From NCBI GenBank assembly GCA_020853395.1, contig JADYYY010000004.1:1-64000 (forward strand): a stretch of DNA of 64,000 nt, given 5' to 3'. Positions 27,718-29,705 of the stretch are shown piece by piece. Origin of the DNA: Acidobacteriota bacterium (GTDB lineage: Bacteria > Acidobacteriota > Vicinamibacteria > Vicinamibacterales > SCN-69-37). The position numbers were made by a program, and so were the translations under genes. Under the pieces are notes generated by a model. That model searched no databases. It saw only the letters and a program-made list of their open reading frames with translations, and was not told the origin of the DNA. The number at the start of each line of letters is the position of its first letter. The stretch's first letter is position 1.

Positions 27718-28428
27718 TCAGGGCTCTCCGTCCGTGGCGTCCACGTGCGCCAGGGCTTCGAGGGCCGCCGCCCGCGAGATGAGCAGCCGGCGGCCGGTCG
27801 TTCGCAGCACGCCCTGCTGCTGCCAGCGCGAGAGCGTCCGGCTCACCGTGTAGAGCGTGGTGCCGCTGAGCTGTGCCAGCTCCTGGCGCGTCAGCGGAAA
27901 CGGCAGCAGCAGCCCGTCCGAGGTCGGCCGGCCGCTCTGGCGCACCAGCCGGAGCAGCGCGCTCGCGATGCGGGCGCCGACGCGCGCGGTGGCCAGCTCC
28001 TGGACGCGAGTCATCGCGTCCGTCATGTGCGTCGCCATCTCGCGCATGATGTTGACGCGAACCTGCGGCGTGCCGGCGAGCAGGCGCCGCAGCGTCGGCG
28101 TCGGCCAGGCGCGCAGCCGCGTCCGATCGACCGCCACGGCCGTCACCGGATACGACGCGCCGTCGATGGCGACGACCCCGCCGAACGGCTCGCCCGGCCC
28201 GACGAAGCGCACGAGCACCTCGGCGCCCTCCGGCGTGAGCTGCAGGATCTTGAGCATGCCCGAGACGACGAGGAACAGCGCGTCGGCGGGCTCGCCTTGA
28301 CGGGCGACGGCCTCGCCGCGCGCGCAGTCCCTCACGCTCGACGCCTGCAGCCAGGCCGCGCGCTCCGCGTCGGCCACGCCCTCGAACAGCCGGGAGCGGC
28401 CGGCCCCGTCGTCCGGCGACATGGGCAC
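27718..28428 (-). CDS. Crp/Fnr-family transcriptional regulator
   Basis: The 236-residue protein has an N-terminal cyclic-nucleotide-type beta-barrel (about 20-130), a long dimer helix and a C-terminal winged HTH with recognition helix TLYTVSRTLSRW. The Ser-Arg of FNR's E-x-x-S-R is kept but the Glu is replaced by Tyr. The N-terminal half has a single Cys, so it cannot hold an FNR-type 4Fe-4S cluster. A heme- or NO-responsive DNR/NnrR-like mode is possible. GTG 28428 or ATG 28422 start. It is divergent from ric, with a palindromic site between them, and probably controls ric and itself. Confidence 0.88.
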   Translation of the reverse strand: MPMSPDDGAGRSRLFEGVADAERAAWLQASSVRDCARGEAVARQGEPADALFLVVSGMLKILQLTPEGAEVLVRFVGPGEPFGGVVAIDGASYPVTAVAVDRTRLRAWPTPTLRRLLAGTPQVRVNIMREMATHMTDAMTRVQELATARVGARIASALLRLVRQSGRPTSDGLLLPFPLTRQELAQLSGTTLYTVSRTLSRWQQQGVLRTTGRRLLISRAAALEALAHVDATDGEP

Positions 28429-28451: not shown

Positions 28452-28467
28452 TTTGCGATGGCGCAAA
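28452..28467. promoter_or_regulatory. Crp/Fnr-type operator TTTGCG-N4-CGCAAA
   Basis: A perfect 16-bp palindrome lies in the gap between the Crp/Fnr gene and ric. Its centre (28459.5) is exactly 41.5 bp upstream of the start site predicted from the -10 at 28489, the classical class II activator position. Confidence 0.6.
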
Positions 28468-28488
28468 GACCGCGGACGGGCCGCTGGC

Positions 28489-28494
28489 TAGAGT
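28489..28494 (+). promoter_or_regulatory. -10 element of ric
   Basis: TAGAGT matches TATAAT at four of six positions and places the start site at 28501. The 36-base leader carries AAGGAG at 28526-28531, five bases before GTG 28537. No -35 box is evident, as expected for an activator-dependent promoter. Confidence 0.45.
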
Positions 28495-28536
28495 GGGCAG
28501 AACATCGCCGCCGGACAGCCACCCGAAGGAGCGCCC

Positions 28537-29244
28537 GTGGACATCACCGCCGACACCACCCTCATGGAGCTCGTCAACGACGCGCCCGCCACCATTCCCG
28601 TGCTGCAGCGCCACGCGATCCACTTCTGCTGCGGCGGGCGCGTGGCGGTGCGTGAGATCTGCGAGAACGAGCAGCTCGACCTCGATGCATTCCTGGACGA
28701 GCTGCGCGCCGCGGTGGCTGGATTCCAGGAACGCGACGACTGGCACGACGCGCCGATCGACGCGCTCATCGTCCACATCCTCGAGCGCTATCACGCGCAC
28801 CATCGCGAGGACCTGCCGAGGCTCGACGGCATGCTCGACAAGGTCGTCGAGCGGCACGGCGACACGATGGGCGAGACGCTCGGCAAGCTGCAGACGCTCT
28901 TCGGGTTCATGGCCGATGCGCTGAGCCAGCACATGCGCCGCGAGGAGGCGGTGCTCTTCCCGGCGATCGCCGCGGCGGCCGATCGGCCTGAAGCGGCCGC
29001 GGCGTTTCCGATCAGGGAAGCGATCGACGCGATGGAGCGGGAGCATCGGCGCGTCGAATGGGCGATGGAGCAGATCCGGGTCGTCACCGATCGGTTCACG
29101 CCGCCGGACGGGGCCTGCGCCACGTTTCGCGGGCTCTATCACGGGCTCGGCGAGTTCGATCGGCTGCTGGACCTTCACGTCCACCTGGAGGACGACATCC
29201 TGTTCCGCCGCGCGCTCGGCCTCACGCCCGCGCCGCGCCGCTGA
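28537..29244 (+). CDS. ric: Iron-sulfur cluster repair di-iron protein Ric/ScdA
   Basis: The 235-residue protein has the N-terminal ScdA domain with HAIHFCCGGRVAV (about residues 26-38), then a hemerythrin-like four-helix domain with His/Glu ligands in HHREDLPRL, HMRREEAVLFPAI, EHRRVEWAM and HVHLEDDILF. Ric proteins restore iron-sulfur clusters damaged by nitric oxide or peroxide. GTG 28537 is supported by AAGGAG five bases upstream. The adjacent Crp/Fnr gene and operator suggest stress-induced expression. Confidence 0.92.
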   Translation: MDITADTTLMELVNDAPATIPVLQRHAIHFCCGGRVAVREICENEQLDLDAFLDELRAAVAGFQERDDWHDAPIDALIVHILERYHAHHREDLPRLDGMLDKVVERHGDTMGETLGKLQTLFGFMADALSQHMRREEAVLFPAIAAAADRPEAAAAFPIREAIDAMEREHRRVEWAMEQIRVVTDRFTPPDGACATFRGLYHGLGEFDRLLDLHVHLEDDILFRRALGLTPAPRR

Positions 29245-29273: not shown

Positions 29274-29618
29274 CTACGCCTTCGGCTCCCTGAGCATGAT
29301 CAGGAGCATGCGCGTGGCGTCGAGCGCTTCCAGCGCGTGAGGCACGTTGGCGGGCATCCGCACGATCGTGCCGGGAGTGGCGGCCACCGGGCGGCCGCCG
29401 ATCGTGAGCTGCATCGCGCCCTCGAGCACGAGCACCAGCGCGTCGAACGGCGCGGTGTGCTCGCTGAGCTCCTGCCCCGCATCGAACGAGAACAGCGTGA
29501 CGTTGCCGCCGGCGGTCTTCGCGAGCACGCGGCTCGCGATGCCCTGGGCGGTCGGGCTCACGAGATCGTGGAGCGGCAGGGCCTCGGCGGCGGGAATCGT
29601 GGGAGACGGAGCGGCCAT
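29274..29618 (-). CDS. Cupin-domain protein in the Ric/CRP-FNR neighbourhood
   Basis: The 114-residue cupin has motif 1 ELSEHTAPFDALVLVLEGAM and motif 2 GTIVRMPANVPHALEA. The frame runs open much further upstream, but AGGAGG at 29629-29624 sits five bases before ATG 29618, which fixes the start. The predicted leader is 37 bases, nearly the same as that of ric. Small cupins like this often accompany stress or redox regulators. Ligand unknown. Confidence 0.88.
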   Translation of the reverse strand: MAAPSPTIPAAEALPLHDLVSPTAQGIASRVLAKTAGGNVTLFSFDAGQELSEHTAPFDALVLVLEGAMQLTIGGRPVAATPGTIVRMPANVPHALEALDATRMLLIMLREPKA

Positions 29619-29661
29619 GCGATCCTCCTGGAGCTGCGCCGGAACGTTCGGCGCGGATCCG

Positions 29662-29667
29662 ATGCTA
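29662..29667 (-). promoter_or_regulatory. -10 element of the cupin gene
   Basis: TAGCAT on the minus strand gives a start site at 29655. The palindrome at 29688-29705 is then centred at -41.5, the same geometry as at ric. Confidence 0.45.
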
Positions 29668-29687: not shown

Positions 29688-29705
29688 CGTTGCGCGAGCG
29701 CAACG
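29688..29705. promoter_or_regulatory. Second Crp/Fnr-type operator CGTTGCG-N4-CGCAACG
   Basis: A perfect 18-bp palindrome sharing TTGCG-N4-CGCAA with the ric operator. It lies between the divergent cupin and methyltransferase genes. It is equidistant (41.5 bp) from the predicted cupin transcript start and from the methyltransferase ATG at 29738. Confidence 0.6.

Follow-up and report, generated by a model that had tools for sequence, protein, structure and literature searches.

A gene for a Crp/Fnr-family regulator lies divergent from the iron-sulfur repair gene ric in this acidobacterium, and a perfect palindrome separates the two. The question raised by the locus is what kind of regulator is encoded, and whether the palindrome is the operator through which it would activate ric. 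The window analysed is the whole stretch of 64,000 nucleotides, and the features on either side of the gap are the following:

27718..28422, minus strand: Crp/Fnr-family regulator, assigned to the NnrR branch, with cNMP_binding and HTH_Crp_2 domains (ATG at 28422; a GTG start at 28428 is possible)
28452..28467, no strand: predicted operator, an NnrR-type box TTTGCG-ATGG-CGCAAA; the same box stands beside orthologous regulators in relatives
28466..28471, plus strand: degenerate -35 element AAGACC, overlapping the right end of the operator, 17 bp from the -10 element
28489..28494, plus strand: predicted -10 element TAGAGT of the ric promoter, with a spacing conserved in relatives
28537..29244, plus strand: ric / ytfE / dnrN-type iron-sulfur repair di-iron protein, with ScdA_N and Hemerythrin domains

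The ric product carries the ScdA_N (DUF542) and Hemerythrin domains of the RIC family (YtfE/ScdA/DnrN), both over their Pfam cut-offs, and the name that the first-pass annotation had given to the divergent gene is thus upheld; the TIGR03652 score of 191.9 bits falls slightly under the cut-off of 204.7. The hexamer AAGGAG is found ahead of ric, at 28526-28531.

The regulator has the same domain plan as E. coli FNR and CRP, but it has neither the [4Fe-4S] cysteines nor the cAMP cassette, and the Glu of the recognition helix is replaced. Its N-terminal half holds a single Cys, not conserved in the family, as against the four Cys of a [4Fe-4S] FNR, while the phosphate cassette GELG...ERSA of CRP gives way to GGVV...SYPVTA, with no Glu and no Arg-Ser. 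Hence, the earlier statement that this is not an FNR-type sensor stands, as does the reading of the recognition helix as TLYTVSR (residues 189-195). In a quick tree, in which several inner branches are weak and from which DNR was left out, the regulator groups with the NnrR proteins of Bradyrhizobium and R. etli, apart from FNR and CRP (SH-aLRT 93). The acidobacterial group is joined, with a support of 86, by the His-type NnrR clade (itself at 96), but the long-branched clade of Glu-bearing paralogues is nested within the NnrR-like set.

Among named proteins, those closest to the regulator come from Acidobacteriota; Bradyrhizobium and Rhizobium proteins with the helix TLHTVSR belong to its wider family. 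At the Bradyrhizobium locus (L127), the regulator gene lies beside nnrS-, hemN- and nirK-like genes (named by eye from translations), and the box before it, TTGCGCTATCGCAA, is the same as that found 66 bp upstream of B. diazoefficiens nnrR (PMC6710368). The gene for the R. etli protein lies between nirK and the nnrU gene, in a nirK/nnrS/nnrU cluster. The ric-side box, of the form TTTGCG-N4-CGCAAA, equals the NnrR motif derived by Rodionov and colleagues, ctTTGcgnnnncgCAAag (PMC1274295); the TTGCG specificity is therefore not new. Over 96 NnrR-like relatives, conservation is 92% for Y91, 99% for P92 and 100% for W106. Tyr93 is needed in vivo for the function of R. sphaeroides NnrR (PMC8510549), and Y91, which aligns with Tyr92 of the R. 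etli protein (the R. sphaeroides sequence lay outside the alignment), is probably its counterpart.

Judged by its sequence, then, the regulator is a member of the NnrR branch of Crp/Fnr. With alphaproteobacterial NnrR (Rhodobacter sphaeroides, Bradyrhizobium diazoefficiens, Rhizobium etli) it shares the box ctTTGcgnnnncgCAAag, the helix TL[H/Y/F]TVSR, the Y-P-...W signature, the absence of the FNR cysteines and targets around NO metabolism; unlike those proteins, which have His at CRP position 181, the acidobacterial regulators have Tyr or Phe, and the identity is about 37-43%. It also resembles Pseudomonas DNR/DnrD in type, as a Crp/Fnr activator that would likewise respond to NO. DnrD positively controls ric in P. 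stutzeri (PMC9268430), and DNR binds TTGATnnnnATCAA, not TTGCG (PMC1274295). A literature search returned nothing relevant on the TTGCG box or NnrR in Acidobacteria. The assignment would carry the NnrR box and regulator type well beyond proteobacteria, into a little-cultured soil phylum, adding a new group to those that have a switch of this known kind, whose DNA signal has been described in other bacteria.

The palindrome (TTTGCGATGGCGCAAA) occupies precisely the position first given for it between the divergent genes, with its centre at 28459.5. If TAGAGT is taken as the -10 element, transcription would start at 28501, giving a leader of 36 nt and placing the operator centre at -41.5. Class II activation at -41.5 is standard for E. 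coli FNR and CRP, and the ric promoter has, in addition to this predicted geometry, the poor -35 element of a class II promoter; a scan for the sigma-70 consensus gave no match. The operator centre also lies 38 bp before the regulator's own start codon, from which position a weak autorepression through the ric-side box is possible.

A lone perfect palindrome in a gap of about 110 bp proves little, and one -10-like hexamer picked to fit is weaker proof still; therefore, the geometry was tested on other sequences. Another 10 genomes of the class encode regulators 57-65% identical to this one, and more distant relatives occur further afield; most of these regulators have TTGCGC-N2-GCGCAA in their intergenic region. 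Related genomes supplied 77 unique TTGCG-N4-CGCAA sites, none of them from the genome studied. A TANNNT hexamer lies 22 nt beyond the core in 14 of these sites and 23 nt beyond it in 7, where 0.24 would be expected at each offset. For offset 22 this gives a nominal P of about 1e-20, a value that overstates independence, since the sites share ancestry and were in part collected by way of their regulators. The 16 cases at offset 22, two of them from the genome studied, are nevertheless spread over 10 genomes and four families, and on these comparisons chance is excluded as the source of the spacing between box and -10 element. The class II spacing proposed in the first-pass annotation, with TAGAGT at 28489-28494, is thus found in relatives far above chance expectation.

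Two further observations bear on the promoter. All 23 aligned, oriented class II promoters have G at the second base past the core, in most cases with A and then C behind it; in this alignment the three are the GAC of TTGACA, 17 bp before the -10 element. Moreover, in three relatives (L024, L025, L011) the ATG of ric lies 6-7 nt past the -10 element, which suggests leaderless ric transcripts there and so fits the -10 assignment independently. The same evidence bears on the alternative of an RNA hairpin, a terminator or a chance occurrence. The palindrome could fold into a 6-bp stem closed by a 4-nt loop, but it lies between divergent genes, relatives keep the letters themselves and their fixed distance to the -10 element, and scans of the locus for terminators and Rfam families gave no matches; we regard this explanation as exceedingly improbable. 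Class-wide, the TTGCG box is not commoner than its reversed control, and for this reason box counts alone were not used as evidence, but rather position relative to the -10 element and to genes. It counts against the proposed link that in G001, G002 and G003 the 1.5-kb stretches flanking the orthologous regulator yielded no ric.

A genome-wide search for TTGCG-N4-CGCAA, proposed in the first-pass annotation as a check on the operator, was run on the 4.28-Mb genome. The core TTGCGN4CGCAA occurs in 3 copies versus 12 for the reversed-pattern control, and two of the three fall in the window, 1.2 kb apart: the ric box, and one at 29690, absent from the earlier account, which faces a cupin gene with a class II promoter of its own:

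29274..29618, minus strand: small cupin protein of 114 aa (Cupin_2), predicted second target
29662..29667, minus strand: predicted -10 element TAGCAT of the cupin promoter, with a predicted start at 29655
29690..29703, no strand: predicted second operator, TTGCGCTCGCGCAA read on the minus strand, centre 29696.5

The 22-nt gap from core to -10 element is identical at the ric and cupin promoters, so that the two are built alike. When box and class II -10 element were searched for together, allowing up to 2 mismatches, the 4.28-Mb genome gave the ric box, the 29690 box (which matched in both orientations) and no third class II box; the control gave 10 + 15 matches. The third copy of the core, C19:81511, is on another contig, inside the 5' end of a TolC-like ORF, and was not considered further as an operator. 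A methyltransferase gene on the plus strand also faces the 29690 box; since CATGAT, and no TA...T hexamer, stands at the -10 offset on that side, activation towards it is not claimed.

Among cupin orthologues, a full box lies upstream in G002, and imperfect boxes with one half degenerate in G190 and G003; most distant orthologues have no box, and the support for the cupin gene as a target therefore comes only from G002, G003, G190 and the genome studied (G000). Several other genomes also have a small cupin gene of this kind close to an NO regulator or to ric.

In relatives, class II promoters with the TTGCG box precede ric, a nirK-like gene, an hcp-associated DUF1858/prismane-associated gene and the gene for a membrane protein distantly like haem-copper oxidases. 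The nirK-like gene under the TTGCG box (in G192) scores 175 bits with TIGR02376 against a cut-off of 296. Its Cu-nitrite-reductase-like product (L191:2411-3589) could be NirK in a divergent form or some other multicopper oxidase. In the genome studied, nirK scores 362 bits, over the cut-off, and has a different box, of TATGAC type with one mismatch, about 220 bp before the matched stretch; the class II TTGCG box precedes ric and the cupin gene only. Hence, unlike alphaproteobacterial NnrR, which controls nir and nor genes, the regulator has a local regulon of two promoters in its acidobacterial host and seemingly does not run denitrification here.

The regulator is very probably an acidobacterial NnrR-type class II activator of ric and the cupin gene. 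It would be activated, most likely by nitric oxide, and the activated dimer would bind TTGCG-N4-CGCAA centred at -41.5 in both promoters. There it would contact RNA polymerase in the class II manner and so compensate for the poor -35 element. The predicted promoter geometry is precise enough for NO-response genes to be read from sequence alone.

The signal is the part of this scheme for which another reading deserves weight, namely that the box is bound in class II geometry in response to oxygen limitation, redox state or iron-sulfur damage. In the alignment of 96 NnrR-like relatives no His or Cys is conserved, so that no obvious haem or thiol sensor of NO is apparent (His132 is invariant only within the 11 closest acidobacterial relatives), and Ric and the cupin would serve in general oxidative stress as well. 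However, the nirK-like and DUF1858 genes that are targets in relatives are of the kind that NO regulators control, and the functionally characterised members of the family are NO-responsive (PMC8139620, PMC9500659). A signal other than NO is thus unlikely, and NO is kept as the favoured one; the lack of a conserved His or Cys over the 96 relatives makes simple His- or Cys-ligated models of NO sensing directly testable.

A paralogous Crp/Fnr regulator with the helix TVETCIR (C4:88700-89347) adjoins a second ric (C4:89444-90076) outside the window, in the region G000:C4:86000-92000 (L194). Given this neighbour, and given that G003 has a TTGCG box and a TATGAC-type box in one intergenic region, it could be proposed that the paralogue controls the ric at 28537-29244 through the TTGCG box. 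The paralogue clade, however, has the helix T[IV]ET[CS]IR and is associated with another box, TATGAC-N4-GTCATA, which has a class II spacing of its own, and the genome search, at one mismatch, placed no such box in the window. Control of this ric by the paralogue is accordingly very unlikely, and the NnrR-type regulator remains the preferred activator.

The TATGAC-N4-GTCATA box has 7 genomic copies at up to 1 mismatch, versus 0 for the control. TANNNT stands at the class II spacing in 16/21 unique sites and elsewhere in 2/21, and this -10 spacing is seen in relatives too. At the same stringency the box precedes nirK (C7:174048) and a haem-copper-oxidase-like gene (C7:179469). A literature search found no description of it, which is not proof of absence. 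We lean towards the view that NO metabolism in Acidobacteriota is shared out between a pair of Crp/Fnr paralogues, both of them class II activators and each with a ric gene next to it: the NnrR type, acting on TTGCG-N4-CGCAA before the first ric and the cupin gene, and an apparently undescribed type with the helix T[IV]ET[CS]IR, acting on TATGAC-N4-GTCATA before the second ric, nirK and the haem-copper-oxidase-like gene.

Residue 181 (CRP numbering) has been linked to a base of the box by Rodionov and colleagues (PMC1274295). In our comparison Tyr, Phe or His at this residue go with TTG-CG, and the Glu of the paralogue clade with TATG-AC. The suggestion in the first-pass annotation that the change from Glu to Tyr fits the TTGCG box is therefore right in direction: the loss of Glu tracks the change of box, but Tyr is one of several non-Glu residues, and since rhizobial NnrR has His at residue 181, it is 'not Glu' that matters more than 'Tyr'. 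If the division between paralogues is true, the paired regulators allow the residue-181 rule of operator choice to be tested inside one genome. HcpR, likewise a Crp/Fnr regulator of NO-related genes, offers a parallel in that the changes published for its box also go with residues 180 and 181, although its boxes are TTGACnnnnGTCAA or TGTGA-type. Finally, at four Chloroflexi loci (L069:4647, L074:4802, L080:4744 and L083:4922), the genes for NnrR-like regulators with the helix NLYNVSR are each followed at a short distance by one and the same variant palindrome, TTGCACTTTTGCAA, possibly a further variant of the operator.
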